Assembly: GCA_016194305.1 (NCBI GenBank)
Contig: JACQBW010000005.1
Coordinates: forward strand, 1-64,000
Length of the DNA: 64,000 nucleotides
Direction of reading: 5' to 3'
Origin: Nitrospirota bacterium
Lineage (GTDB): Bacteria; Nitrospirota; Nitrospiria; JACQBW01
Both the position numbers and the translations under genes were made by a program. A model generated the notes under the pieces. The model made no database searches. It had not been told where the DNA came from and saw only the letters and a program-made list of their open reading frames with translations. This document shows positions 8,567 through 46,300 of the stretch, in pieces. The stretch's first letter is position 1. Every line of letters starts with the position of its first letter.

Positions 8567-11500
8567 CTATTCGTTTTTCTTCTCCAGCATTGAGACCGGC
8601 ACAGAAGCCGGGGGAGCCTTTGGCTCTTCAGCTGTTTTCATCCCCATCGACCCGGCACCCGTATTGATCGGAAGAAGACTCTTGTCTCCCACCGGCAGGA
8701 CTCTCAGGTAGCCCCACTGTCCGGCTTCCGCGTAAGGCATGCGGTGGTTTTGCCAGACGTAGGTGCCCGGAAGATGGTAAGGCCCTCCCGCCCCTTCCTT
8801 GATGAAGACATCCAGATTTTCCGACCCGCCAAACTCTTCCGAGCTCAACATATCGGCACCGACCATATTCGGCTTGAGCGGAAATTCATGACCCTCAAGA
8901 CTGAAGATTTGATTCTGTTCATCAAATGCTCCGAATACATGGATCCGAACCGGGTCTCCGGCATGGGCGGAAATAGTCGGCGTCACGGGATCTTTCTCGT
9001 CGGCAACGCAGGCGGAATAGAGATTCCCCAACTCACACCCCTTGTCCTGTCTCCAGCTCCAGGGTTCGATCCGGTAGTTGACACCCGTCAACCCGGCAAT
9101 ATGCTGAAGATACGGCATAAAGGAGGTTCCGATAATGTTGTCTTCTTCCTGGAAGAAGAGTGACGCGTCGCGATAGTCGGCACGGCTCGCATTCTCCGGG
9201 ACCGAACGATCGATGATCACATCGACATTCCATGCATTTTTCAAGCTGACATCTTCGCCGCTTTTCGGATCGCGATAGGTGGAACCTCGCGGACCGACGA
9301 TGATTCCGCCGAAGAGTCCGTCTCTCACGTTATTGAGAATATTGGCCCAGTCGTAAACCAGCGCGGCCGTTTCGCCATATTCAGCCGGTGCATAATACAT
9401 ATAGGTCTTATGCTCACCCGGGCCGATGGTCTGGTCTCCCGGATTCATGCCGACGTTGATCCCCTGCGAATCTTTTGGATCGAACGCCAGCATATCGGCA
9501 CTGAACGAAGCGCGGCTTGCCTTCATTTCGTTTTTCAAGTTGATCTTGATACAGTCACCGATGTTGACATGGAGCGTCAGCGGATTAGGCTGGCTGTCCA
9601 GCGCAACCCTGCTCTTGTCCCCTTCGAGCATGAAGATCTTCCCTTTGGGGTTGGCAACCTGCAGTTTCCGGTCGAAATCGACTTCGATCGTATCCGGCGC
9701 CTGATTATTGAATTTTAACGAACGATCCACCGCAATCACATTGAATGCCTTGACCGGCGCATCCGATGGACAGACCGACTTGGCTGACTGTGGTATTTCT
9801 TCATGTCCCGGAAGCGGCTTCAGATCGGCGGTTTTTTTGTCCAGCACCCGCATAATGCCCCAACTCCCTTCGGAGAGGTGAGACGCCCGGCCATTGTAAT
9901 GAAGGTAATCGCCTGCCATCTGCTGGGCTCCGCCCGCGGTGGTGACCAGGTCATACCGTTCGGCGATTCCCACATGATAGGCATTTCTCAGGTCGGAGAA
10001 TTGCGCATAACGTTCTGTTCTGAAGGCATGGCCTGCAATATGCCAGGTATGCGATTCGTTCATCATCACATGCATCAGGCGGAAGACGACCGTATCCCCC
10101 AGATAGGCTCTCAAGAGCGGGGTGTCCGGATCCTGATTGTGGTGCGCAAGACTCGAGAAGACGAGCTCCGATTTTGAATTGTCCGCAAGCCTTCGGGCCA
10201 GCGATTCCGCACGGAAGAACATTCCTCCGCCTGTCGTATGGGTTCCTCCGTTGATCGACGTGTTGGTGACCTTCAGAAGATCCTCAGGCATCACAAACGA
10301 GATGGTCTGTCCGGCGTCAATCGAGGCTTTGAGCGACTGTCCGGGAGGATTCCCTTCCGTAACCACCTGTGCGGTAAAGGGAACGGTGTCATGGAGATAC
10401 ACCACCATCTCTCTGAAACTGCCGCTCCGGTTGTAACCAATCGGTTCCGTGGAATGAATATCCGCAATCGGTCCGCTGCGGATCTCCTTGCCGGTTTTCG
10501 GATCGTGATAGGTGGCCCCTACCGGTTCCACAATCATGCCGCCGACCCCGCCGTGAGGCCAGGTGGTCGCGCCCAGCGCGTGGTCATGCCAAAAGACCGT
10601 CCCGAGGTCCGAATCGACCCAGTAGCGGTAGCGGACATATTCAGCCGAGGTAATCTCGCCTTTCTTATGGGCATGTTTCAGGGGTTCGGTAAAGGTGATC
10701 GTGTCGCCATTGATCGCCTTGATCCACCGGACTTCCGAAGAATTAAGCTCGTGCATGCCGATCATAATGTCGGTGCCGACATGGAACGCTGTTGCGCCAT
10801 CGCCCATTTTAATTTTAATGGAATCGGCTTTGGCTGCGGCATCCGAAGTCAACAGCGCGTTCATCGGCGCGGGCATCCCTTTATGTTCTTTTTTCCCGAT
10901 CATGGTGAACGGGCGGACCGACTGTTCATACGAAAATCCACTCATCACCCCGTCTGAGGCCTGATTGTCAAACTGGATGAAATGAGGGTGGATGTTGATC
11001 TTCGACATCTGGAAATTCGTATTATCGTTGTCGTTCCACTCACTTTTCAGAATCACATCAACGCAATCATAGACATTGGCGCGATAGACCAGCGGGCGAG
11101 CCAGGTCTGAATTTGCCCGGATTGCGGCTTCTTCCTCCTGAAGGACGTAAATCGTTCCATGCTGATCGACAATCGGTTTTTGACTTCCGATGGCGGTCTC
11201 CATGGTAATCGGCGTCTCGATAAAATGAATGGTGTATTGTTTACGCCCGGCCCCTTCGGGACAAAGGCTCCATTTTCCCTGTTCGCCCGGTTTTGCCGGA
11301 AGGGAGGTCTCCTGACCTAATGCCCCTTCACTTCCCGGATCGGTTGCCAGCGCGCCTGCGTTTTTGGCCACGTGGATCGGTTCCAGCCAGGGGGCAGGAC
11401 CATGGTGGCGGGCAAACGGAATTCGTTTTCCAAAGTGCGGTTTAAGATGGGGCCAGGAAAGTTTTCCGGTCTTCTCTTCGAATAAAAGAGGAGGTCGCTT

Positions 11501-13504
11501 TCCGGGAATGGGAGACTTGAATTTCGGAAACGCGAACTGATCGGTCATTTCCGGTTCGCCCATCGCCTTATTCCCGTCCCAACTCCAGTCCCACACCGTC
11601 GCGTCATAAGCCATTATCTGGCCTTTTTCATCGGCGGTATGGCCCGGCTGCCCGGCAGGGGGGAGCATCATCTTCACCCATTCCTTGATTGAAATGTCGG
11701 GAATCGGTTTTGACCAATCGGTTTTGTCGGCCGTAATATGCCATTTCTTGTTATACCAGTCGACTGTTTTGTCCACAAGCTGGTCGGAAGTCACCGGCGG
11801 TTTCATTCTCCCTTTCCGTTCCGGAAGTTCCTGAAGCGCGGGCATAATGTCGGTGCTTCCATAGGGATAGTTCCCCGTCTGAAGCGTGTTATAGACGCGC
11901 CAGTAAGACCACATGCCGGCCACATAATGATGCGCCACATGGCAATGCATCAGAAAATCTCCGGCTAGTTGCTGACAAAGACCCGAACCGCATTCGACCT
12001 GAAGATCGAGCGCTTCGGTCGGTCCGATCACTTCCACATCGACGCGGTCTGAAGTGGTCCGAATGACCGGATATTTCATCGGGCCGTCCGTCCCGGCCAA
12101 AAAGAGCTCTTCGGCTTTCGCATCGGCTTTCGGCTGACGCAGCCAGCGGATCGTTCCTCCGTGCGGATGATGGGAATGGAAAACTTCTCCGCCGCCATGA
12201 ATCAAACGATATTTGGTTGGATCCCCCATATAGGACCTGGGGAGCGCCGTGGGAGGGTCACCAAAGGTATAGGCACTGTAACTGTGGGATTCATCTTCAA
12301 AATGGAAATATTTTTCTTGTTGGGCTAAATTATTGATTCCAAACGGTTCGCTTCTGAAATTGATCGCGCGGGCCGCGGGGCGATAAGCATCCGAGTTTGG
12401 ATCGCGCTGGGGAATCATTTCTCCATGACGATTGAGCGGACGGAAGGATTCATCGCCGATCTCATGGTAATACATGACAAATTCACGGAAGTCATGCGTG
12501 GTGGGGTATCTTTTCTGGTCAAAAGTAATCATCATCTGCCAGCCGCTCATGTTGACTTTTCCGGTGATCGAGTCGAGGTAAACGGCTCCCATCTGCTCCA
12601 CGATAAACGAACCGATCATCCCGAGACTGCTCGATTCACGCCCGACATGGCTGTGAAACATATGAGCCCCTTCCTGTTCATCAGGACGGATATACCATTC
12701 AAATGCCTGTGATTTTCCCGGTTTGACATTGGAATCCGGATTCACCATCGTTGCCGGCTGTCCGGTTGATTTGACAATAAAGCTGGAGCCATGAATATGG
12801 AGTCCGACATCTTCGTCCTTCATCGTATTCCGGAGGGTCAAGATCACGCAATCTCCCTGATTCCCGCGCAGGGTCAGCGGCTGAATCACGTCGGTCTGTA
12901 ATCCGTTGGTTACCGCACCCGGATCGTTATCGTGGCCTCGTGCTTCCTTGTTCTTTTTCTCTTCTTCTCGGACTTTCGAAAGATTTTCGGTTAAAACATA
13001 CATATAGCCGGGATGATAATCACCCCATTGATTCAAAGTGATCTCAACGGTAATGGCCGAGACATCATACTCTTTTCGAGGAGCGTTTGCGGGACAACGG
13101 CCTCCCTGTGTGACGGTCTCGCTGACGGTCCCGGGTCCCAGGAAGAAACTTCGATCCATCTGCTGCATGGTCGACATATCCTGAAAGGGACCTGCTGCAG
13201 CTTGATGCGGGTGTTTCCCGCCGGAGATCTCTTCCATTAACTTGTTCATCGCGGCATCAATTTTATCGTTATTGCCCGACTTCCCTTCCATGGACTCTTC
13301 CTGCTCAATCTGTTTCTTGAGCTTCGTCTGCCAGGAGCCTTCGGAATCCGCCGCCGCGACGACGGTACTCCCATGCTGATGGCCTTCTTCGGCAAAAACG
13401 GCCTGAGTCATCCAGAGGAAACCGATACCCAGAATCAGAAAAAGCAAGATAAGCCTTTTATGATTTGAAAATGTTTCTGCGACCTTCATTCGTAAATAAT
13501 TCAT
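8567..13504 (-). CDS. Giant exported multicopper oxidase, MofA-like; candidate Mn(II) oxidase
   Basis: From the ATG at 13504 (GAGGAGAT ahead of it) the protein has 1645 residues, far more than ordinary laccases and close to MofA of Leptothrix, a proposed Mn(II) oxidase. A signal helix (LILLFLILGIGFLWM..AVFA) exports it. Copper motifs, in residues from this start: HIHG (about 236), H-M-F-H-S-H-V-G (about 281-288), HSHHPHGG (about 443-450) and HCHVAHHYVAGM (about 520-531). The last holds the type 3 and type 1 ligands including the axial Met, so the first half has a full copper set. The second half has HPHF (about 839), FWHDHALG (about 971) and HTWHIAGHAF (about 1152), but its fourth site is degenerate (YLHYNGRASHLSEGSWG). 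The C terminus carries another cupredoxin-like domain ending WQNHRMPYAEAGQWGYLRV. Substrate is inference. Confidence 0.88.
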   Translation of the reverse strand: MNYLRMKVAETFSNHKRLILLFLILGIGFLWMTQAVFAEEGHQHGSTVVAAADSEGSWQTKLKKQIEQEESMEGKSGNNDKIDAAMNKLMEEISGGKHPHQAAAGPFQDMSTMQQMDRSFFLGPGTVSETVTQGGRCPANAPRKEYDVSAITVEITLNQWGDYHPGYMYVLTENLSKVREEEKKNKEARGHDNDPGAVTNGLQTDVIQPLTLRGNQGDCVILTLRNTMKDEDVGLHIHGSSFIVKSTGQPATMVNPDSNVKPGKSQAFEWYIRPDEQEGAHMFHSHVGRESSSLGMIGSFIVEQMGAVYLDSITGKVNMSGWQMMITFDQKRYPTTHDFREFVMYYHEIGDESFRPLNRHGEMIPQRDPNSDAYRPAARAINFRSEPFGINNLAQQEKYFHFEDESHSYSAYTFGDPPTALPRSYMGDPTKYRLIHGGGEVFHSHHPHGGTIRWLRQPKADAKAEELFLAGTDGPMKYPVIRTTSDRVDVEVIGPTEALDLQVECGSGLCQQLAGDFLMHCHVAHHYVAGMWSYWRVYNTLQTGNYPYGSTDIMPALQELPERKGRMKPPVTSDQLVDKTVDWYNKKWHITADKTDWSKPIPDISIKEWVKMMLPPAGQPGHTADEKGQIMAYDATVWDWSWDGNKAMGEPEMTDQFAFPKFKSPIPGKRPPLLFEEKTGKLSWPHLKPHFGKRIPFARHHGPAPWLEPIHVAKNAGALATDPGSEGALGQETSLPAKPGEQGKWSLCPEGAGRKQYTIHFIETPITMETAIGSQKPIVDQHGTIYVLQEEEAAIRANSDLARPLVYRANVYDCVDVILKSEWNDNDNTNFQMSKINIHPHFIQFDNQASDGVMSGFSYEQSVRPFTMIGKKEHKGMPAPMNALLTSDAAAKADSIKIKMGDGATAFHVGTDIMIGMHELNSSEVRWIKAINGDTITFTEPLKHAHKKGEITSAEYVRYRYWVDSDLGTVFWHDHALGATTWPHGGVGGMIVEPVGATYHDPKTGKEIRSGPIADIHSTEPIGYNRSGSFREMVVYLHDTVPFTAQVVTEGNPPGQSLKASIDAGQTISFVMPEDLLKVTNTSINGGTHTTGGGMFFRAESLARRLADNSKSELVFSSLAHHNQDPDTPLLRAYLGDTVVFRLMHVMMNESHTWHIAGHAFRTERYAQFSDLRNAYHVGIAERYDLVTTAGGAQQMAGDYLHYNGRASHLSEGSWGIMRVLDKKTADLKPLPGHEEIPQSAKSVCPSDAPVKAFNVIAVDRSLKFNNQAPDTIEVDFDRKLQVANPKGKIFMLEGDKSRVALDSQPNPLTLHVNIGDCIKINLKNEMKASRASFSADMLAFDPKDSQGINVGMNPGDQTIGPGEHKTYMYYAPAEYGETAALVYDWANILNNVRDGLFGGIIVGPRGSTYRDPKSGEDVSLKNAWNVDVIIDRSVPENASRADYRDASLFFQEEDNIIGTSFMPYLQHIAGLTGVNYRIEPWSWRQDKGCELGNLYSACVADEKDPVTPTISAHAGDPVRIHVFGAFDEQNQIFSLEGHEFPLKPNMVGADMLSSEEFGGSENLDVFIKEGAGGPYHLPGTYVWQNHRMPYAEAGQWGYLRVLPVGDKSLLPINTGAGSMGMKTAEEPKAPPASVPVSMLEKKNE

Positions 13505-13646
13505 AAAATGATCTCCTCTTGTTATTTTTCGCTGAACCAATCTAAATTGATTGATTCATCTCCACTCTATATAAAAAACCTGAAATCGATTTGTTGCCGA
13601 AGGAACCACTCGAAGAAAACTTCCCTTTATAGAAACGTGCTACTGT

Positions 13647-35416: not shown

Positions 35417-36742
35417 TTAGAATAAGGTCAGAAACTTACCGACTCCGGGGGTTACCGTACCCAATCCCATATTTAACTGAACGATCAAAATATCGCTATC
35501 CTGTTGTAAACCGCTCGCATTCAAATGGTCATACTCAAAGGTCCATCGGGCTACGGGACTGACATAATACCGATACGCCGCAGCATATCGAACACGGGAA
35601 TCTTCCTGCTTTCCAATGATCTGGGAAGAAGCGGGATCCACATAATCCTGACTGGACGGGGCGACATAATCTAACCGAGCCGCCAATTCATGTCGGTAAG
35701 CATAACGATAACTTGCTTCAGTATACGCACCCCATAGGGTATCGCTTTTGCCAGGAAGTGCGGTCGAAGTGAGCATCCCATAATTGTTGAGATCCTTTTG
35801 ATTGATGATCGGGTGATCCCGCTTGGCGAGGATACCTTCAATTGTCCATCGGACATTCGGGAATATCGGCGAAGTAGGCGGTTTCCAAAAGAGCGTCGAT
35901 TCCAGGTCGATTAACGTGGTCTTATCGTCCGGATTGCATTCCGTACAGCCTGATGCTGCAATCATGTCTGCATTCTTATTATTTCCAAATGCCCCGGAAA
36001 TTCCAGGTTCCCAGGTCATCGCATCGTTAATCCCGATCACCGATGAGATCTTCGGAATTATGACAAATTGATTGGTATCCGTACCCGCGTCATCCGCTGC
36101 ATTATTTCTTGTGTCGATCGGTCTCACAAAGGTGGAAAAACGATTCACATTTCCAAAATCACCCTGCAATTGAGCATTCTGAACGTCCAATGAAAATTCT
36201 ACGAAAGTCTCGATGGGCGGCTGCCAGGTTAATTCCATTCCCAGCTTGTGAATTCCGTCTTCCCCCAGCATGATATTGGTAATGATCGGAGGGGTGGCAA
36301 AATTCCATTCATGGTCGTGAACCGGATTGATCTTTCCAATATTCGATCTGAAAATACCCGCTTTTAACGCCAGATTAAAAGGCATTTTATGGAAATAAAC
36401 AAAGGACTCTTCAATGGAGGAACCGGATTCCGCTCCGGTGATAAAGAGAGCGAATTTCGCGGGAAATTGGAATAGTTCCGCGGAAAAAGAAAGATCCGCG
36501 CTCTTTAACGTAAATCCGCGCGGAATGGAGCCGCCCACCACATCCTGGTTATATCCTTCCGCATAGTGAGTCATATTGGCATACATCAAATTGATGTTGA
36601 GAGACATATCAATCAGGCCATACTGGCTCAAAGTCACCCCTTTGACATGGGCTTCTGCCGGAGGGGCCCAAGCAAGAACCGGCATGAGGGAAATAGTCCC
36701 TAACCCCACATAAAGAAAAAATTTTCTAATTGAAAACATCAT
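35417..36742 (-). CDS. Outer-membrane porin leading the metal-uptake operon
   Basis: This 441-residue protein has a signal peptide (GTISLMPVLAWAPPAEA) and then alternating beta strands ending in an aromatic residue (KFLTLF), as for an outer-membrane barrel. It contains a motif G-x-F-R-S-N-I-G-K-I-N-P-V-H-D-H-E-W-N-F with a following GEDGIHKLGMEL, like those in barrels found beside zinc transporters. The His cluster could guide metal entry. With the three binding proteins, ATPase and permease downstream (gap 38 bases) it gives an outer-to-inner membrane uptake route. Its start follows a leader with two terminator-like hairpins. Confidence 0.8.
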   Translation of the reverse strand: MMFSIRKFFLYVGLGTISLMPVLAWAPPAEAHVKGVTLSQYGLIDMSLNINLMYANMTHYAEGYNQDVVGGSIPRGFTLKSADLSFSAELFQFPAKFALFITGAESGSSIEESFVYFHKMPFNLALKAGIFRSNIGKINPVHDHEWNFATPPIITNIMLGEDGIHKLGMELTWQPPIETFVEFSLDVQNAQLQGDFGNVNRFSTFVRPIDTRNNAADDAGTDTNQFVIIPKISSVIGINDAMTWEPGISGAFGNNKNADMIAASGCTECNPDDKTTLIDLESTLFWKPPTSPIFPNVRWTIEGILAKRDHPIINQKDLNNYGMLTSTALPGKSDTLWGAYTEASYRYAYRHELAARLDYVAPSSQDYVDPASSQIIGKQEDSRVRYAAAYRYYVSPVARWTFEYDHLNASGLQQDSDILIVQLNMGLGTVTPGVGKFLTLF

Positions 36743-36862: not shown

Positions 36863-36927
36863 AAAAAAAAACCACGAATACCGCGGATCTCCTCTTAGTC
36901 GATGAGAATCCTCTTAACCTTCGTGGT
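36863..36927 (-). terminator. Terminator of the cytochrome operon (or first leader hairpin)
   Basis: On the reverse strand ACCACGAA and TTCGTGGT (36920-36927 and 36871-36878) form an 8-bp stem over a structured 41-base loop, followed by nine T residues (36863-36871). It lies about 134 bases after the 27-haem gene stop. Confidence 0.65.
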
Positions 36928-37060: not shown

Positions 37061-39022
37061 TTATCGCGTCAGAGAAGAGTCTTTTTTAATCACCTTAAAA
37101 TCGATTTCACTGTGACAGATTTCACATCGCTGGCCCAATTCTCCGTCATGAATATCATCTCTCCGATGACAGCTGACACACATTCTGGAGGTTTTTGCCA
37201 CAAACATGGTCTGGGTATGGCATTCGGGGCATTTCACATTTCTATGTTTATCAAGAAGCGGATACCCGGTCTCTTTGAAATGATTAAAATCTTCTCTTTC
37301 CCAGGTCTTTGCCGTATGGCAGGCTTCGCATTTCTTCCCGAATAACCCTTTGTGCTCGTCATCTTTCTTGTGACAATCGATACAGAGCCTGGGCGCATCT
37401 TTAAAGAGCTGGGTTTTGTGGCAAAGCGCGCATTTGGTCTCGATATGTTTCCCTTCGAGAGGGAAATTGGTCTTTTTGTGATTGAATTTGTCGATCTCTT
37501 TCCAGGAATTTTCCGTATGGCATCGCGCACAGGATTCACCCAGCTTTCCCCGATGCTTATCATCTTTTTGGTGGCAAGAAATACAATCGATGGAAATCTT
37601 ATATTTCTCATTCGCATGGCATTTACTGCAGAGTACCGGAATATGCTTCCCAACCAAGGGATATTTTGTCGTGGAATGGTCAAATCTAATCTCCTTCCAC
37701 TTGGGCACAATCTGATGACAGCGATCGCATTTCGGCCCCAATTTTTCTTTATGGTAATCATCTTTCTTATGGCAGTCGTAACAGAGTTTCGGTGTCTGTT
37801 TAAGCTGGGGAGTCTGGTGGCATTTGATACATTCGACCTTTTGATGGGTTCCGACTAATTTGTACTCAAATTTATTGTGGTCAAAGTTTTGTTCCTTCCA
37901 CGTTTTTGCGGTATGGCAGGTCTCACAATCCTTGCCGAGGTTTCCTTTATGTTTATCCTCTTTTAAATGGCAACCGATACAGGTCTTGGGCGCTTCCTTG
38001 ACTTTTTTAAGAGGAAGATGGCATTTTTCGCATTTCGTATCGATATGTTTGCCTTCAAGCTTAAAGTCTGTCTTGTTATGGTCGAATTTAATTTCTTTCC
38101 ATTCCCGGGCGGTATGGCAGGTTTCACAATTCTTGCCCAATGATCCTTTGTGCTTGTCCTCTTTCTGATGACAGCTGAAACAGGCCTTGGGGGTCTCTTT
38201 AAATTTCTTCTGGGGTTGATGGCATTTTTCGCATTTGGCTTCTTCGTGCTTACCCACGAGCGGAAAATCGGTTTTGGAATGGTCGAATTTGATCTCTTTC
38301 CATTCCCGAGCTGTATGGCAACTTTCACATACTTTTCCCAATGACCCTTTATGTTTGTCTTCTTTTTCATGACATGAAAAACACTCTTTGGGCGTTTTGG
38401 TAAAATTTTGAGCGGTATGGCATTTTTCACAGACGACAGGACCCTGTTTTCCGGTGACATGTCGCCCGATCAGGGGAAAATGGGTCGTTGCGTGATCAAA
38501 TTTCGCCTCTTTCCAGCTTTTCGCGTTGTGGCACTCCTTGCAGTTCTTTCCGAGCGCCTCTTTATGGTAGTCATCCTTAATATGACAGGGAGAGCACTCT
38601 TTCTGTGTTTCACGGTATTTCGGCTTTTTGTGGCATTTATCGCAGTCTGCCTTTTGATGTTTCCCTTCGAGATCAAATTCCGTTTTACGATGATCAAACT
38701 CATCTTTTTTCAGATCGACCAGTTCAAAGACTCTCCCTTTGTGGTCGCTGTGGCAGATTTCGCATTTGGTGGCATCGATTTTTCCATGAAATCCTCTCTT
38801 CTGGTCGACATCTCGTTTTGCCTCTTTGTGGCAGACGAGGCATTTGTCAAAAAAGAATTTCTGGCCGATGGTGTGGCATTCCAGACAGTTTCCTTCAATC
38901 TTCTGATGGAGAGAGGCAACTTCGCCCGGCATGACCCCTTTGAGGAGGTCAAATGAGTGGACTTTGGACGGAGTCAATAAGAAAAGAACGAGAATGGATA
39001 GAAATAGAAGCTGTTTCTTCAA
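37061..39022 (-). CDS. 27-haem c-type cytochrome built from three-haem repeats
   Basis: This exported 653-residue protein (signal peptide MKKQLLFLSILVLFLLTPS) contains 27 CXXCH motifs; summing motifs and gaps reproduces the full length, so the count is firm. From the middle on, three-haem modules of 66-67 residues repeat: a WKE.KFDH.KT.F.L.GKH stretch, CXXCH, 11-12 residues, CXXCH, then KEDKHKG.LGK and CXXCH. The many extra His residues (FDH, GKH, DKH) can serve as distal ligands for bis-His haems. Lysine richness implies a basic, soluble periplasmic or fibre-forming protein. The start seems to be TTG. It follows the di-haem b protein gene by 45 bases, and I infer that it carries electrons across the periplasm. 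Confidence 0.92.
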   Translation of the reverse strand: MKKQLLFLSILVLFLLTPSKVHSFDLLKGVMPGEVASLHQKIEGNCLECHTIGQKFFFDKCLVCHKEAKRDVDQKRGFHGKIDATKCEICHSDHKGRVFELVDLKKDEFDHRKTEFDLEGKHQKADCDKCHKKPKYRETQKECSPCHIKDDYHKEALGKNCKECHNAKSWKEAKFDHATTHFPLIGRHVTGKQGPVVCEKCHTAQNFTKTPKECFSCHEKEDKHKGSLGKVCESCHTAREWKEIKFDHSKTDFPLVGKHEEAKCEKCHQPQKKFKETPKACFSCHQKEDKHKGSLGKNCETCHTAREWKEIKFDHNKTDFKLEGKHIDTKCEKCHLPLKKVKEAPKTCIGCHLKEDKHKGNLGKDCETCHTAKTWKEQNFDHNKFEYKLVGTHQKVECIKCHQTPQLKQTPKLCYDCHKKDDYHKEKLGPKCDRCHQIVPKWKEIRFDHSTTKYPLVGKHIPVLCSKCHANEKYKISIDCISCHQKDDKHRGKLGESCARCHTENSWKEIDKFNHKKTNFPLEGKHIETKCALCHKTQLFKDAPRLCIDCHKKDDEHKGLFGKKCEACHTAKTWEREDFNHFKETGYPLLDKHRNVKCPECHTQTMFVAKTSRMCVSCHRRDDIHDGELGQRCEICHSEIDFKVIKKDSSLTR

Positions 39023-39067
39023 ATGTTTCTTAAATGGGCCTTTAGTTTTTATGGGGTAGGGCAGGAC

Positions 39068-39976
39068 CTAGAATATCATAACTGCAGCAATATGGATAAT
39101 AAAAGTGACAATCAGAATCCATATAAAAGGAACATGGAGTTTGTGCCAGATCGAGAAGAGCTTCGCCGCCGACTCGAGAACGGTCACATGTTTTTCCAGA
39201 GAGATGAGTTTAATGACCATCTCTTCAAGCGATCCTTCCAAAACATGGTACTTTCTCTCCTTTAAATATTTAATCACCTCTTTTTTGACCTTTTTTTCCA
39301 GTAAATCGATCTTGATCATCAGGTAAAGAGATTTTAAAAGTCCTGCAGAAGACTTGCTCTCTCTTAAACCAAAGAACCGGTTGATACTGTCCAAAGTTTT
39401 CTGGGAATCGGAGAACTGGGTTTTTATCTTTTCACTGAGCTGGCTGATCTCTTCGTTCATTTCCCTTAACGTCGCTCTTTCTCCAGAAAGGGAGAATTGG
39501 AAATGTCGGTAAATATAACGCCCCACAATGCCGCTCCCCACCACGATCATCATCGAATAGTAGGCAATGGCCGAATTGGTCGCGGTGACCGTAAAACCGC
39601 TGTGGTATACGATCAACATCGGACCAAAAAGACAGAATAAGATATGAATGTCGAGCCAATCCTTGATTTTTCCAAAATGACTTAATCTTCTGACCTTTTT
39701 CCGGATCACATAAAAAGAGGCCCCGACAAACATCATGGCTGAACCAATAATTCCGATCAGCCGGGAAAAGTCATCGCCGACTTTGTAGGGAAATATCGCC
39801 ATATAAATGGGAACCCCGACGGCCGCAGAGAGTCCCAGTATTAACATGATCCATTTGGCCCATTTCATCGGATTGAACTCTTTGGAAACAGCATCCGCTC
39901 TATTTTTTGGAGGAGCCGAGTTTTCCTTGGCTGGCATATTCTGATACGCTTTCGGCTGGGCGATATTAATCTGCAT
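39068..39976 (-). CDS. Membrane protein with two H-X13-H helices (predicted di-haem cytochrome b)
   Basis: From the ATG at 39976 (AAAGGA eight bases upstream) the protein has 302 residues and five hydrophobic segments. Two of them, counting from this start, carry His pairs with the spacing of bc1-type cytochrome b: H111 and H125 in DIHILFCLFGPMLIVYHSGF, and H281 and H295 in KLHVPFIWILIVTFIIH. In such proteins each helix supplies one ligand to each of two stacked haems. A charged coiled-coil-like segment of about 100 residues lies between these helices. I recognise no named family. Position between the barrel and the 27-haem gene suggests a quinone:cytochrome c link. Haem binding is inference. 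Confidence 0.7.
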   Translation of the reverse strand: MQINIAQPKAYQNMPAKENSAPPKNRADAVSKEFNPMKWAKWIMLILGLSAAVGVPIYMAIFPYKVGDDFSRLIGIIGSAMMFVGASFYVIRKKVRRLSHFGKIKDWLDIHILFCLFGPMLIVYHSGFTVTATNSAIAYYSMMIVVGSGIVGRYIYRHFQFSLSGERATLREMNEEISQLSEKIKTQFSDSQKTLDSINRFFGLRESKSSAGLLKSLYLMIKIDLLEKKVKKEVIKYLKERKYHVLEGSLEEMVIKLISLEKHVTVLESAAKLFSIWHKLHVPFIWILIVTFIIHIAAVMIF

Positions 39977-40030
39977 TAATAAATCCTTTCTGTTCTGACT
40001 TGTCAAGATCCGGGCAGTTCTTAAAATGAA

Positions 40031-42127
40031 TTAAAACGGAATTGAGACGCTGGTGCGGGTCTGGATGGTATTGTTCCAACCCGAGGAGAAGCTATTGTCT
40101 TCCATCAAATAATCCCCTTCCAGACTCGCTTCCACACCATTCTTTAACGAATATCTCATCACAAACCCCGGAACATACCGGGTTAAGGAGCTCCCCGCTG
40201 ACAGATTGAAAACGGTGTTTTCATATCGAAATCTAAGCCCCCCCTGGAAACCACTGGGCCAAATTCGAAGCATATTGGCGACGATGGAAGTATTCGTGGA
40301 GTCCGTCCCGGGAGAATAGAGAAAAAGGGTAGAAATAATCTCGTTCTGATTGAAATAATTCCTCTCCAAAATAAACGCCGAATAGCGGTCTGCAATCTTC
40401 TCCGAATCGACCATGGGAAAAGTGATCATATGGCTTGCGAGATCGGTTGGATTATAAAATGTCTTCCCATACCTGAAATCGACTCGCCAGATAAGGGAGA
40501 GGTCGATCGAAAGTCCAAGACTGTAATCGAGCGTCGTTTGCGTCGCAGCCAGGGCGCTGGCCATAATTTCCTCCCGCGACTTGGTTGCGATCAGATCATC
40601 CATCGTCGTAATAGGAGGAGTCGCGAGGAAATTTGCCGGGTCTGCAAGCGCCGTGTTGAAATCCAGAAAAGGATTTCTCCGGTACTCCACCAGACCGGAA
40701 TAGTGAAAGATGGACCGGGTATAGTCGAAATTAACCATGGCATCATTTATTTTATTGAAATCGATATCCCGATCGAGGAGCGTCGTCAAATTAAAGTTTT
40801 CATACATCCAGAATGCATTGAGACCAACGGCTCTTCGGGTTGAAAATTCTTGAAAATACTCCTGAGTAAAGTAGATCTTACCCGTGATATGATAATAGTC
40901 GACCACCGATAAATAGCTTTCATAGAATTTTCGCTCGGATTCAATCGCGAGCGTATCGGTCGCAAAAATATCGACTGGAGCTCCGACGCTGTTCGTCCAG
41001 GTCACGGAAGAAACCGGAAGACCAAAAGACAATCCGTCAAACCGGTTAAATAACGTACTTCCGGAGCTCGGCTGTCTTCCCAAACGGAAATTCGAAAACC
41101 AGCCGACATTATTCCCTTCAAGATATAACTTATTGAGTCGGGTCCGGTCATTTCGATTGACCAAAAAGTCGTTTGCGTTCATCCCGGAAAAGTTGAAACG
41201 GAGATCGGGACCGGATCCCTTCCGCCATCTGAAATCCAGAAATTCGCTCAGGCGGCTCTGGGTATTCGAAGACATCCCTTCAGGAACACCTGCGAGGGCA
41301 TAATCGTAAAGATATTCGGTAATGAGTGAGCCGGAGATTCTGTCCGGACCTGTTCGAACCGGAACCCGCTTTGCCGGGGTTTCTTTCTTCTCCGCGCCTT
41401 CCTTCCCTTTAAGATCCCCGGTTGCCGTACCCGATTTTGCCAGGAGCTGGCTCTTTTCTTCCGCATCTTTTTTATGAAGTGAAGCGGGGAAACTTTTCAA
41501 AAAGCGCTTGAAACTTTCCAGGGCTAGAGCCGGCTTCTCCGTCTTTTCGCTGATCAAAGCAAGATACCAATACGCTTCTTCCACAGATGACGTACCATTG
41601 CCGCTTTGAATCAGGCGATAAAAGAGCGATTTCGCCTGATTATACTCTTCTTGCTGAAAGAGCTGGATTGCTTTGGCCAGTTCATCAGATTGATCTTTAG
41701 GGGATGGATGTGCCTGGACGGAACTGGCGGCGCCAGAAGTGACCGAACTAGATGGCAACTTCTGATCAAGAAGGACTAATTTGCCCTCCGCCGCTTTCTT
41801 GTGAGAACTGCCGGGATAACTTTTTACAAATAATCTGATTTTCTGCCGAATGATATTCGGTTTGTCTGATTTCTCGCTGATCAGAACCAGGTACCACTGC
41901 GCATCTTCAATTTCCGGAGAACCAATTCGCGTTTCAATCAGATGCAAAAACAGTTTTTTGGCTTTGACGAAGTCCGATTGCTCATAAAAACGAATCGCGT
42001 TAGCCATTTCATCCGAATGGCCCCTTAGATTCAGGAACGACGGTCCCCATGAACAGCCGCTCAGTAAAAAAAAAACGACGGAAAAAATCAAACCTTTGTT
42101 AATCAATTCATACCCTTTCTCAACCAT
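40031..42127 (-). CDS. Outer-membrane lipoprotein: TPR domain plus beta barrel
   Basis: This 698-residue protein has a lipobox (FLLSGC, Cys 25), then two similar tetratricopeptide-like blocks (ANAIRFYEQSDFVKAKKLFLHLIE and KAIQLFQQEEYNQAKSLFYRLIQ, each followed by an EDAQWYLVLISEKS-type helix), a Lys/Pro-rich linker, and from about residue 255 a long run of amphipathic beta strands ending in a Phe (TRTSVSIPF). It has no CXXCH motif. I infer the outer-membrane pore of a porin-cytochrome conduit, with the TPR part on the periplasmic side docking cytochromes. It starts three bases after the 11-haem gene and 25 bases before the b-type gene region, so it is part of the same operon. Confidence 0.75.
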   Translation of the reverse strand: MVEKGYELINKGLIFSVVFFLLSGCSWGPSFLNLRGHSDEMANAIRFYEQSDFVKAKKLFLHLIETRIGSPEIEDAQWYLVLISEKSDKPNIIRQKIRLFVKSYPGSSHKKAAEGKLVLLDQKLPSSSVTSGAASSVQAHPSPKDQSDELAKAIQLFQQEEYNQAKSLFYRLIQSGNGTSSVEEAYWYLALISEKTEKPALALESFKRFLKSFPASLHKKDAEEKSQLLAKSGTATGDLKGKEGAEKKETPAKRVPVRTGPDRISGSLITEYLYDYALAGVPEGMSSNTQSRLSEFLDFRWRKGSGPDLRFNFSGMNANDFLVNRNDRTRLNKLYLEGNNVGWFSNFRLGRQPSSGSTLFNRFDGLSFGLPVSSVTWTNSVGAPVDIFATDTLAIESERKFYESYLSVVDYYHITGKIYFTQEYFQEFSTRRAVGLNAFWMYENFNLTTLLDRDIDFNKINDAMVNFDYTRSIFHYSGLVEYRRNPFLDFNTALADPANFLATPPITTMDDLIATKSREEIMASALAATQTTLDYSLGLSIDLSLIWRVDFRYGKTFYNPTDLASHMITFPMVDSEKIADRYSAFILERNYFNQNEIISTLFLYSPGTDSTNTSIVANMLRIWPSGFQGGLRFRYENTVFNLSAGSSLTRYVPGFVMRYSLKNGVEASLEGDYLMEDNSFSSGWNNTIQTRTSVSIPF

Positions 42128-42130
42128 ACT

Positions 42131-43096
42131 TTATTTAGAAAAAGTGGAGGTACTATGGCAATTTCCACAAACCAGGCCGACGTTATGATTCGATTTATAG
42201 ACCGCACCCATCGGATTTCCCGCTTTGTGGCAGTTCTGGCAGGTCGATGAATAATTAAAAATCGCCGAATGGACCATTTTATAGCTGGAAAAACCACCCG
42301 ATTTGGTACTGGTGTGACATGAGTTACAATCGGTGATGATGTTCGAAAGAGGATTGTGAATCAGGTTTCCTGCCGTGGTTGGGGGTACCATTGCCCCACT
42401 GGAGTTTCCGGAAAAATGACAACTTTTACATTGCTGACCGGCAAGATTGGTATGGTCAAATGCCGCACCCGCAAAGGAGCTCGTGCTCTTGTGACATTGA
42501 CTGCAATCCTGACTTCCTAAATTGCTATGGGTGGCATTCGTGGGCGGAGGCATTCCCGGACCTCCTATCTTATGACAGGAGGAACAGAGCTGGCCCATCA
42601 GATTTGCATGGTTGAATCCCGCTGGCACCCAAGCCGTGGTTCGATGGCAGGTGTCACATTGGCTCGTTGTCGGGACATGATTGGAAGGTTTCCCCGTGGC
42701 TTTCTGGCCATTGTGACAGTTGGAACACTGGCCTGCTGTCGAGGGGTCGTGCGTAAAAGTAGAAGGGATCCAGGCGTTTTGGCTATGGCAGAACATGCAG
42801 CTCTGATTGGTCATGAGATGGCTAGCCGGTTTACCATAGGAGATCTGTCCATTATGACATTCCTCACAGGTGCGGGGGGTCCCTTTATATCTTCCTCCGG
42901 AATGGCATTGCTTGCAGTCCAGAATCCGGTGTGCCCCTTGAAGCTGAAAAGAGGTGGAGTCATGGTTAAAGTTGGGACGAGGCGTCGTTTGAGCCTGGGC
43001 AGATATTGGGAAATAAAAGAACAATATTCCTGTTGCCAGGCAGATCCATACTTTGGAAAGATAACTTCGACGATTAACCTTTGAATCCGTAGTCAT
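42131..43096 (-). CDS. 11-haem c-type cytochrome, paralogue of the 33-haem protein
   Basis: I chose the ATG at 43096, preceded by GGAGGAG, giving 321 residues with a signal peptide (LATGILFFYFPISAQA). There are 11 CXXCH motifs. The N-terminal part (PRPNFNHDST.FQL.GAHR.L followed by six haems) and the C-terminal part (GAM.PP.TAGNLIHNPLSNI.. and three haems, ending CGNCHSTSTF) match the 33-haem protein closely. The low-complexity, Ser/Thr/Gly-rich spacers and few basic residues suggest a surface-exposed chain-like cytochrome. It leads an operon with the barrel, the b-type protein and the 27-haem gene, behind a sigma-54-like promoter. Confidence 0.92.
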   Translation of the reverse strand: MTTDSKVNRRSYLSKVWICLATGILFFYFPISAQAQTTPRPNFNHDSTSFQLQGAHRILDCKQCHSGGRYKGTPRTCEECHNGQISYGKPASHLMTNQSCMFCHSQNAWIPSTFTHDPSTAGQCSNCHNGQKATGKPSNHVPTTSQCDTCHRTTAWVPAGFNHANLMGQLCSSCHKIGGPGMPPPTNATHSNLGSQDCSQCHKSTSSFAGAAFDHTNLAGQQCKSCHFSGNSSGAMVPPTTAGNLIHNPLSNIITDCNSCHTSTKSGGFSSYKMVHSAIFNYSSTCQNCHKAGNPMGAVYKSNHNVGLVCGNCHSTSTFSK

Positions 43097-43177
43097 TTGA
43101 ACTCCTCCTGTAAGGTCTATCGAGGTCTCAGTCTGACCTGGTCTGAAAATGATAAAACAAGTCACCTGAATTCAAAT

Positions 43178-43191
43178 GCAATAAAAATGCC
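43178..43191 (-). promoter_or_regulatory. Sigma-54-like -24/-12 promoter of the cytochrome operon
   Basis: The reverse strand reads AGGCAT-TTTTA-TTGCA. GG and GC are ten bases apart and the -12 half is a perfect TTGCA. Predicted start near 43166, giving a leader of about 70 bases to the 11-haem ATG. Confidence 0.58.
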
Positions 43192-43194
43192 TGA

Positions 43195-43233
43195 GTGTAA
43201 ACACGTCCATGCAGTTCGGAGTGTTTGTAAACA
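43195..43233. promoter_or_regulatory. Two TGTAAACA sites 30 bp apart, likely activator sites
   Basis: TGTAAACA occurs at 43196-43203 and 43226-43233, both in the same orientation, start to start exactly 30 bp (about three helical turns). The first is embedded in GTGT-AA-ACAC and the second in TGTTT-GT-AAACA, both with palindromic arms. They lie just upstream of the -24 element. Confidence 0.5.
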
Positions 43234-43492
43234 AAGGATAATTTAATTGAACAATTCTGTCGTCATGGTACATACGGTAAAGGTAGTACAAAAACCTGCC
43301 ATGGATCCGGGTCGCATTCCAGCCGCGGAAATGCCTAAACGCAATTGCACAATAAGTCAGGATTTGGTATTTGACAAAGACAGTAATAGGACTTGATCTG
43401 AAGGCACTCAGGTCATACCCCTTTTACGAATGAAGTTGTCCGAAGATTAAGTTTTCCATTATCGCATTTCTAACTTTTCTTTCATCGTCCTA

Positions 43493-46162
43493 TTATTTGT
43501 CAAAGGTGGAAGTGCTATGACAATTTCCACAAATGACACCGACGTTATGGTTAGATTTAAATTCGGCACCCATTGGATTTCCCGATTTGTGGCAATTCTG
43601 ACAGGTTGTCGCATAATTCAAGATCGCCGTATGAACCATTCTATAGCTGGAAAAACCACCCGATTGCGTGCTGGTATGACAGGAATTACAATCGGTAATA
43701 ATATTTGAAAGCGGATTGTGAATCAGGTTTCCTGCCGTCATCGGGGGAGCCATCGCCCCGGTCGTATTTCCCGCAAAATGACAGGTCTTGCAAGTCGTTA
43801 CACCGGTATGATTGAAGGAGGCCCCCGAAAATGTGGTAAAACCGGTATGACATTGGCTGCAATCACTATTGGCCGCCGCATAGGGATGCGGATTCGGTGT
43901 TGAAACCGCTCCTACCGTATTCCCGGCAATATGACAGGTCGCGCAAGAAGTCGGAGGAGAAATACCCGTGTGATTCATCGTCACGGTGGTAAAGGTCGTC
44001 GTACTTGAATGGCAACCATTGCAATCCTTCCCGTTGAGATTACTGTGCACGACATCATTTTTCGGCGCCATCCCGGACCCTCCGGTCTTGTGACAGGAAT
44101 TACAAAGTTGGCCGGTCAGGGTAGAATGATTAAAGATTCCGTTCGCAAAAGTTGCTGTGCCTGCATGGCAGAGATTGCATTCCTGGGTCGTCACCATATG
44201 ATTCGACGGTTTGGCCACCGCTCCGACCGCATTGCCGACAGAGTGACAGGTGGAACAGACCGCAACAATTCCGGTGTGATTCATGGTCGCCGTGGTAAAG
44301 GTCGTCGTACTCGCGTGACAGCTCTTGCAGTCCTGGCCTGCCAGATTGCTGTGCACAACATCATTTTTAGGCGCCATCCCGGATCCGCCGGTCTTGTGAC
44401 AGGAATTGCAAAGCTGACCGGTCAAGGTGGAGTGATTAAAGACCCCGTTCGCAAAAGTGGTTGTCCCCGCATGGCAGAGATTACATTCCTGAGTCGTCGC
44501 CATATGATTCGAGGACTTGGCCACCGCGCCAACCGAATTGCCGACATAATGACAGGTGGAACAGGCCGCAACTACTCCGGCGTGATTCATAGTCGCCGTG
44601 GTAAAAGTGGTGGTGCTGGCGTGGCAACTGCTGCAATCCTGTCCGCCCAGATTACTATGGACCACATCGCTCTTCGGCGCCATCCCGGAGCCGCCCGATT
44701 TGTGACAGGAGGAACAGAGCTGACCAGTTAAACTTGAGTGATTAAAAATGCCGTTGGCAAACGTAGACGTTCCGGCATGGCAGAGATTACATTCCTGAGT
44801 CGTCGTCATATGATTCGAGGACTTAGCCACCGCACCGACCGAATTGCCGACATAGTGACACGTGGAACAGGCCGCAACAATTCCAGCGTGGTTCATCGTC
44901 GATCCGGTAAAAGTGACCGTTCCGGTATGGCAGCTGCTGCAATCCTGTCCGCCCAGATTACTATGAACGACATCGCTCTTCGGCGCCATCCCGGAGCCGC
45001 CCGATTTATGACAGGAAGAGCAAAGTTGTCCGGTCAGACCCGAGTGATTAAAAATGCCGTTGGCAAACGTGGAGGTTCCGGCATGGCAGAGATTGCATTC
45101 CTGAGTCGTCACCATATGATTTGACGGCTTGACCATTGCTCCCACGGCATTAGCTGCTATGTGACAAGTCGAACAGGGGATGACGATGCCAGCATGGTTC
45201 ATGGTCGATCCGGTAAAAGTGACCGTTCCGGAATGACAACTTTTGCAATCCTGACCGCCCAGATTACTATGAACAACATCGCTCTTCGGCGCCATCCCGG
45301 TGCCGCCTGATTTGTGACAGGAGGAACAGAGCTGGCCGGTCAGACCTGAGTGATTAAAAATGCCGTTGGCAAAAGTGGAGGTTCCGGCATGGCAGGAACT
45401 GCATTCCTGTGTCGTCGCCATATGATTCGACGGCTTGACCATCGCTCCCACAGTATTCCCTGTCGCGTGACAGGTCGAACAAGGTGCGACGATACCGGTA
45501 TGATTCATGGTTAAAGTGGTAAAGGTCGTGGTGCTGGCGTGACAGCTTTTACAATCCTGTCCGCCCAGATTACTATGTACGGCATCTGACGTCGGCGCCA
45601 TGCCGGTGCCCCCCGCCTTATGACAGGAAGAACAGAGCTGATTTCCCAGATTGGCATGATTAAACCCTGCAGGGATCCAGGCAGAAGTCCGGTGGCAGGT
45701 ATCGCATTGGCTGTTTGTGCTGATATGATTTGCGGACTTTCCAGTTGCCTTTTGACCATTGTGACAGGTTGAACATTGACCCGCCGAAGAGGCATCGTGT
45801 GTAAAGGTCGTCGGGAGCCAGCTATTTTGACTATGGCAGAGCGTGCAGGCCTGAGTGGTCATGATATGGTCAGCCGGTTTGCCATAGGTGATCTGGCCAT
45901 TGTGGCAATCCGAACAATTTCGAGGCGTCCCTTTATACCTTCCGGCAAGATGGCATTTATTACATTCGAGCCCCCGATGCGCTCCTAACAGTTGAAACGT
46001 CGTCGAATCATGGTTGAAATTGGGCCGAGGGATATTTTGCACCACTTTGGTGCTATTTCCAATTTCCGTGCTGCTGGCAATAGATGAGGTTGAGAATAGA
46101 GCACTGTTGATCAATAGTAATTGAAAGAGGAAAAAAACCAATGTTTTTAAATGTTTAGTCAT
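43493..46162 (-). CDS. 33-haem c-type cytochrome with tandem four-haem repeats
   Basis: This exported 889-residue protein has 33 CXXCH motifs; motifs plus gaps add up exactly to the length. Residues 254-661 are four exact-length copies of a 102-residue unit with four haems, residues 662-767 a slightly longer fifth copy, and residues 153-253 a related partial one. In each unit the spacers read AGTSTFANGIFNHSGLTGQL, K.GG.GMAPK.DVVHSNL.GQD, then TFT..TMNH.GIV and VGA..K.SNHM.TTQE. Each spacer carries a His that could be a distal ligand. The ends match the 11-haem protein. The likely job is long-range electron transfer at the cell surface, perhaps as a filament. A sigma-54-like promoter and two palindromes precede it. 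Confidence 0.93.
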   Translation of the reverse strand: MTKHLKTLVFFLFQLLLINSALFSTSSIASSTEIGNSTKVVQNIPRPNFNHDSTTFQLLGAHRGLECNKCHLAGRYKGTPRNCSDCHNGQITYGKPADHIMTTQACTLCHSQNSWLPTTFTHDASSAGQCSTCHNGQKATGKSANHISTNSQCDTCHRTSAWIPAGFNHANLGNQLCSSCHKAGGTGMAPTSDAVHSNLGGQDCKSCHASTTTFTTLTMNHTGIVAPCSTCHATGNTVGAMVKPSNHMATTQECSSCHAGTSTFANGIFNHSGLTGQLCSSCHKSGGTGMAPKSDVVHSNLGGQDCKSCHSGTVTFTGSTMNHAGIVIPCSTCHIAANAVGAMVKPSNHMVTTQECNLCHAGTSTFANGIFNHSGLTGQLCSSCHKSGGSGMAPKSDVVHSNLGGQDCSSCHTGTVTFTGSTMNHAGIVAACSTCHYVGNSVGAVAKSSNHMTTTQECNLCHAGTSTFANGIFNHSSLTGQLCSSCHKSGGSGMAPKSDVVHSNLGGQDCSSCHASTTTFTTATMNHAGVVAACSTCHYVGNSVGAVAKSSNHMATTQECNLCHAGTTTFANGVFNHSTLTGQLCNSCHKTGGSGMAPKNDVVHSNLAGQDCKSCHASTTTFTTATMNHTGIVAVCSTCHSVGNAVGAVAKPSNHMVTTQECNLCHAGTATFANGIFNHSTLTGQLCNSCHKTGGSGMAPKNDVVHSNLNGKDCNGCHSSTTTFTTVTMNHTGISPPTSCATCHIAGNTVGAVSTPNPHPYAAANSDCSQCHTGFTTFSGASFNHTGVTTCKTCHFAGNTTGAMAPPMTAGNLIHNPLSNIITDCNSCHTSTQSGGFSSYRMVHTAILNYATTCQNCHKSGNPMGAEFKSNHNVGVICGNCHSTSTFDK
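43874..45403. repeat. Tandem repeat array, 306-bp period, inside the 33-haem gene
   Basis: Five consecutive DNA units of about 306 bp encode the four-haem modules. For example the TGGCAGAGATT(G/A)CATTCCTG segment recurs near 44164, 44470, 44776 and 45082. The high nucleotide identity points to recent amplification, so copy number may vary between cells and may be misassembled from short reads. Confidence 0.9.
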
Positions 46163-46252: not shown

Positions 46253-46300
46253 TACACTATATATAGTATATTATAGTTATAAACAACTATATATAGTGTA
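46253..46300. promoter_or_regulatory. Paired ACTATATATAGT palindromes, likely activator sites
   Basis: The perfect 12-bp palindrome ACTATATATAGT occurs at 46256-46267 and 46286-46297, centres 30 bp apart. With flanking bases the two form a perfect 15-bp inverted repeat (46253-46267 and 46286-46300). They lie 11-58 bases upstream of the -24 element of the 33-haem gene. Confidence 0.62.

Follow-up and report, generated by a model that had tools for sequence, protein, structure and literature searches.

An operon in a Nitrospirota genome that probably represents a divergent lineage of the PCC3 porin-cytochrome conduit

The PCC3 porin-cytochrome c complex was described by He et al. 2017 (PMC5566968). 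Its sequence features are a periplasmic cytochrome with 21, 24 or 27 haems, a larger surface cytochrome, a porin, and an inner-membrane protein of ~300 residues with five transmembrane segments (TM), a WX3HX13H motif on both TM3 and TM5, and SGXXG on TM4 (PMC5566968). In the Gallionellaceae, 21, 24 or 27 haems are found in the periplasmic partner and 10-35 in the surface partner (PMC10734462), while for PCC3 overall the periplasmic cytochrome has 21-27 haems and the surface cytochrome 10-85 (PMC5566968, PMC10734462). No PCC3 complex has been tested biochemically (PMC12442390).

We analysed a stretch of 64,000 nucleotides (the window), which is part of contig C5 of a 2.27-Mb Nitrospirota genome that is 95% complete. 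Five genes, all on the minus strand, encode proteins with 33, 11, 0, 0 and 27 CXXCH motifs in order of transcription. The initial annotation had read them as a quinone-to-surface conduit made of 33-haem and 11-haem surface cytochromes, a TPR-barrel lipoprotein, an inner-membrane di-haem cytochrome b and a periplasmic 27-haem cytochrome. The genes are indeed present and co-directional, and this layer-by-layer anatomy fits the PCC3 model in the literature. All the published features of PCC3 that can be tested in sequence were found at the window locus. We consider it likely, with a probability of about 80%, that the locus is a divergent Nitrospirota lineage of PCC3, given its gene set, its motifs, its homology to PCC3, a predicted barrel with TPR domain, five predicted helices and a conserved gene order.

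The clustering typical of PCC3 genes is evident here, as the four layers adjoin both in the window and in its relatives. In transcription order the intergenic gaps are 396, 3, 24 and 45 bp, taking the start of the 11-haem protein as the ATG at 43096, which is most likely, although the frame is also open from a GTG at 43165. The short gaps between 43096 and 37061 had been pointed out before. A perfect 13-bp inverted repeat with a 20-bp spacer (ACACTATATATAG / CTATATATAGTGT, 46254-46299, minus strand) was read from the sequence ~90 bp upstream of the 33-haem start and is a possible operator or regulator site. At the other end, a consensus scan found a terminator-like hairpin with a T-run (36872-36886, minus strand) that would mark the end of the operon; it is weak evidence, since the region is no richer in these sites than shuffled sequences are.

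The 27-haem protein (37061-39022) is Lys-rich (17%) and compact, at 24 residues per haem. Its haems recur at spacings of 16/18/32-33, which reflects nine copies of a 3-haem unit of ~66 residues. In a comparison with the 24-haem PCC3 cytochrome of Gallionella we observed 43% identity over 605 aa (E 1e-150), and the earlier view that this protein is suited to the periplasm agrees with the PCC3 model. The 33-haem protein (43493-46162; 889 aa, signal peptide) is homologous to the PCC3 surface cytochromes of Gallionella and Nitrospira. Its composition (Ser+Thr+Gly 35%) and repeats are those of the Thr/Ser/Ala/Gly-rich PCC3 surface cytochromes, and a surface location is predicted, as it is for the 11-haem protein (42131-43096; Ser+Thr+Gly 31%); both had been judged suited to the surface. 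A tandem repeat of ~102 aa and four haems occupies the middle of the 33-haem protein, with recurring spacings of 27/24/26/25, and corresponds to a 306-bp repeat at 43970-45641 (5.5 copies, 82% matches); the haem number may reflect a strain-variable or mis-assembled array length. The 11-haem protein matches the 33-haem protein at both termini (122/167 and 87/116 residues identical) and has no repeat array, indicating that the two surface cytochromes are paralogues of different length. Composition shuffles of the three cytochromes gave a mean of 0.1-0.4 CXXCH and a maximum of 3. No solved structure related by sequence to the 27- or 33-haem protein was found.

The protein encoded at 40031-42127 was modelled with AlphaFold2 (24 sequences, mean pLDDT 79.8) as a 22-strand barrel at residues 263-697, preceded by TPR-like helical blocks at residues 39-122 and 143-232. 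The two blocks are a duplication (mutual alignment score 204 versus a shuffle maximum of 47) that is apparently absent from the close relatives G131 (574 residues) and L049 (592 residues). A signal peptide is followed by the lipobox LSGC, whose cysteine is the only one in the porin; thus, the outer-membrane lipoprotein with barrel and TPR domain that had been proposed is supported by the model and the lipobox. The PCC3 porins of Gallionella, Burkholderiales and Nitrospira are likewise TPR and barrel proteins homologous to the window porin. Against the Gallionella PCC3 porin the BLAST E value was 9e-14, and 1.9e-39 with an HMM of the window clade; profile-profile alignment (hhalign) with proteobacterial PCC3 porins gave a probability of 100%.

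The inner-membrane protein (39068-40006) has both WX3HX13H motifs (W117x3H121x13H135 and W287x3H291x13H305) as well as S158GxxG162, and AlphaFold2 predicts five membrane-length helices (46-71, 79-104, 114-137, 143-174 and 257-311). No substitution occurs at W117, H121, H135, S158, G159, G162, W287, H288, H291 or H305 in 38 homologues, which come from several phyla. The initial annotation had made haem binding the test of its di-haem reading; the invariance of the histidines expected to ligate the haems supports that reading, and we predict from these motifs that the protein is a di-haem cytochrome b. It is 31% identical to its counterpart at the Gallionella locus (E 4e-39). Pfam and NCBIfam did not recognise the protein, Foldseek with the model gave no significant match, and a profile search of solved structures gave none.

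Because all layers are homologous to those of the Gallionella PCC3 loci, we rejected the idea of a novel five-layer system. The initial annotation had held that known systems combine fewer haems and have no TPR-barrel of this kind. Neither statement is correct, given the haem ranges published for PCC3 and the TPR domains of the proteobacterial and Nitrospira porins, and so the TPR-barrel is not a unique feature. The likeness to the PCC3 of Gallionellaceae extends to four homologous layers, the motifs of the inner-membrane protein, haem numbers, a low residue-per-haem ratio, repeats, and a porin with TPR and barrel. MtrCAB, MtoAB and PioAB follow the same logic of inner-membrane donor, periplasmic multihaem cytochrome, porin and surface cytochrome, but their cytochromes have 10 haems and their porin 24-32 strands (PMC5566968), compared with 27 haems and 22 strands in the window. 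MtrB was not among the 50 structural matches listed for the window porin, and the DmsE/MtrA-family model scored far below its cut-off in the window. Ca. Manganitrophus, which belongs to the same class as the window organism, has a porin-multihaem conduit, PCC_1, which differs from the window locus in being described as a porin paired with a dodecahaem cytochrome (PMC9040806).

A scan of the genome collection with the inner-membrane protein returned 318 loci, of which 80 were kept; these include Nitrospirota, Proteobacteria, Bacteroidota and Ignavibacteriota. The protein was matched in 46 of the 270 Nitrospiria genomes searched, a few of the matches being weak, and is present in all three genomes of the window's family. 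The earlier suggestion to look for the same gene order elsewhere was fruitful, since loci in which no layer is missing were found in relatives. In the Nitrospiria families f1, f4, f7 and f8, all genes point the same way: the surface cytochrome(s) come first, then the lipoprotein porin, small redox genes where present, the inner-membrane protein and the 24-/27-haem protein. Family f39 shows this order up to the end of its contig. The PCC3 layers also recur in Nitrospira and Proteobacteria.

In a tree of the inner-membrane protein, the window sequence groups with other Nitrospirota from outside Nitrospira in a clade of six rows (96/87). A long branch (length 1.6) separates this clade from the Proteobacteria-Nitrospira PCC3 clade (100/99), and the Bacteroidota homologues are also separate from it. 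Depending on the rooting, the window clade is sister or outgroup to PCC3, the deep order being uncertain with such long branches. Five families are represented in the separate, deep branch that contains the window. Compared with other PCC3 loci, this branch has co-directional genes with the surface cytochromes first, two surface cytochromes, and a lipoprotein porin that lacks an N-terminal extension; some of the relatives have in addition a ferredoxin, Rieske or flavoprotein gene. A lipobox was found in 8/8 porins of the window branch and a plausible one in 0/14 proteobacterial or Nitrospira porins. The latter begin with an N-terminal extension in which a likeness to AMIN or SPOR was seen by eye but was not confirmed by Pfam on the extension-bearing porins scanned. 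The Nitrospira loci (L033-L039, L053 and others) have the same layers, including a 24-/27-haem periplasmic protein and a TPR porin, but they are arranged as two divergent operons, one with the inner-membrane protein, a 24-haem protein and a peptidase-like gene and the other with the surface cytochrome and porin. Their porin, of ~766 aa, has a start of the signal-peptidase-I type whereas the window porin is a lipoprotein, and their inner-membrane protein groups with proteobacterial PCC3, apart from the window.

The Bacteroidota and Ignavibacteria loci (L057, L073, L077, L083 and others) are related but form a different cluster, consisting of the inner-membrane protein, a fused 4Fe-4S and Pyr_redox_3 protein, a 20-/23-haem cytochrome, a second cytochrome with 13-63 haems and a protein of ~534 aa. 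The TPR-barrel HMM had no match in these clusters.

What is new here is the occurrence of PCC3 across the Nitrospiria, a deep branch with a lipoprotein porin, and redox-gene inserts in some of its members. Nitrospira is a genus known mainly for nitrification. PCC3, which was first listed in Alpha-, Beta- and Gammaproteobacteria, now extends across the class Nitrospiria including this genus. We found no published report of such a distribution in the open-access literature, where PCC3 and a Nitrospira-type name co-occur only in PMC5566968, as an incidental mention. The compact five-gene operon, with its comparatively short porin, should also be useful for structural work.

If the locus works as a PCC3 conduit, the quinone pool (or a cytoplasmic redox carrier) would exchange electrons with the two b haems of the five-helix protein. 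The electrons would next travel along the 27-haem wire spanning the periplasm, for which the lipid-anchored TPR blocks of the porin, lying at the periplasmic face, would probably be the docking site. They would traverse the outer membrane either within the 22-strand barrel or alongside it. At the outer end, the 33-haem and 11-haem cytochromes would stand outside the cell.

Several steps of this scheme can be read differently. TPR domains in front of a barrel are also the architecture of exopolysaccharide exporters such as BcsC and PgaA, and BcsC ranks among the best structural matches of the porin, which would then be a chance resident of a cytochrome operon. However, Foldseek returned only generic barrels for the porin model, with unspecific TM-scores of 0.2-0.3, and the exporters combine TPR with a 16-strand barrel and polysaccharide synthesis genes, whereas here 22 strands are predicted, the neighbours are cytochromes and none of the identified flanking genes is for polysaccharide synthesis. 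Since the porin family moreover co-occurs with PCC3 cytochromes across phyla, we regard an exporter as very improbable. A partner other than quinone for the inner-membrane protein deserves more weight, although it too seems unlikely: in the window lineage its partner could be a ferredoxin or an NAD(P)H flavoprotein of the cytoplasm, in the style of NADPH oxidases or ferric reductases. Between the porin and inner-membrane genes, G131 and L049 have a Pyr_redox_2 flavoprotein, accompanied in L049 by a 4Fe-4S ferredoxin, and two f4 genomes (L040 and L179) have a Rieske ferredoxin without signal peptide (inserts at L031:14641-15882, L049:5253-6762, L040:10443-10748 and L179:10836-11141); Bacteroidota homologues adjoin the fused 4Fe-4S/Pyr_redox_3 protein. 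These neighbours suggest the hypothesis that, in some lineages, carriers in the cytoplasm can exchange electrons with the inner-membrane protein, and the inserts point to a possible cytoplasmic partner for the PCC3 inner-membrane protein. The window operon, on the other hand, has no insert, its genome has no orthologue of the flavoprotein (the best match is a 25%-identical stretch of a NirB fusion), and no such gene lies beside the inner-membrane gene in the proteobacterial and Nitrospira loci examined. Somewhat more doubtful still is the broader proposal that the window belongs to a distinct PCC3-like class, defined by a lipid-anchored TPR porin in place of the usual one and by a transmembrane b-type protein that can have ferredoxin, Rieske or NAD(P)H flavoprotein partners in the cytoplasm. 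If it were true, electrons from outside the cell could supply biosynthetic reductant directly, or could travel the opposite way, with quinone bypassed in either case.

For a conduit of the PCC3 type, electrons might also flow outward, from quinol or NAD(P)H to extracellular Fe(III)/Mn(IV) or another acceptor in a form of respiration. The membrane potential would favour such flow, since it assists the passage of electrons through a ferric-reductase-like b protein from the cytoplasmic to the periplasmic side. Mtr-type conduits are regarded as reversible (PMC10734462). In Sideroxydans ES-1, PCC3 was not induced by Fe(II), and both clusters were expressed at a lower level with Fe(II) than with thiosulfate (PMC8788666). 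The published expression data conflict, as one inner-membrane gene of PCC3 in strain CL21 increased with iron oxidation (PMC12442390). The genome of the window organism speaks for the opposite direction. It contains a bd-like terminal oxidase, over the family cut-off and in a cytochrome-rich cluster, and an ATP-citrate lyase domain, which together indicate an oxygen-respiring autotroph in need of an electron donor, and a search for usual inorganic-donor enzymes, which covered nitrite oxidoreductase and DsrAB, found none. Nitrite oxidoreductase was not among the two molybdopterin (PF00384) matches, which are a fusion of assimilatory nitrate reductase with NirB and a protein encoded within a complex I gene cluster; an AprA-like protein and assimilatory reductases are present, and no DsrAB-type pair was called; and a CcoN-like fragment was found in place of a full haem-copper oxidase. 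These absences are provisional because the draft is ~95% complete. The genome therefore looks like that of an oxygen-respiring autotroph with no obvious donor, and from the oxidase, the lyase and the failure to find nitrite oxidoreductase and DsrAB we judge net flow in this organism more likely to be inward than outward (about two to one), leaving extracellular respiration as a tentative alternative. Along the inward route, an extracellular reduced donor (e.g., Fe(II), a mineral or another cell) would deliver electrons to quinone, from which they would reach the bd-like oxidase as well as CO2 fixation. Mn(II) has too high a potential to reduce quinone unless energy is supplied, and so Fe(II) or another low-potential donor would fit the di-haem b route better.

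The operon holds 24 of the 27 matches to a close-spaced CXXCH pair in the genome, and no other large multihaem protein was found by this pattern, which misses widely spaced haems. As the only large multihaem conduit found in the genome, it is a specific candidate for the route of the organism's electron donor or acceptor. The bd-like oxidase at L165 (G000:C25), of 643 aa, is not recognised by NCBIfam and lies amid mono- and dihaem cytochromes.

The initial annotation had also drawn on two neighbours in the window for direction and function, and neither proved informative. The multicopper oxidase (8567-13540, minus strand; 1657 aa) is weakly MnxG-like (107 bits versus a cut-off of 3100), and copies of it, full-length or partial and 52-87% identical, occurred in 19/19 Nitrospiria genomes tested. 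Because 5 of these 19 genomes had no match to the inner-membrane protein, the oxidase says nothing about the conduit or its direction, and we rejected it as a functional partner. The adjoining metal operon is a separate set of ZnuA-type uptake genes with the terminator-like site between it and the conduit; it is probably unrelated, and Zn/Mn uptake was likewise rejected as a partner. Directly upstream of the ZnuA-type genes, 35417-36742 (minus strand) encodes a 441-aa protein that resembles an outer-membrane porin and has no Pfam or NCBIfam match. A second copy of the multicopper oxidase in the organism's own genome, on contig C7, contains internal stops.
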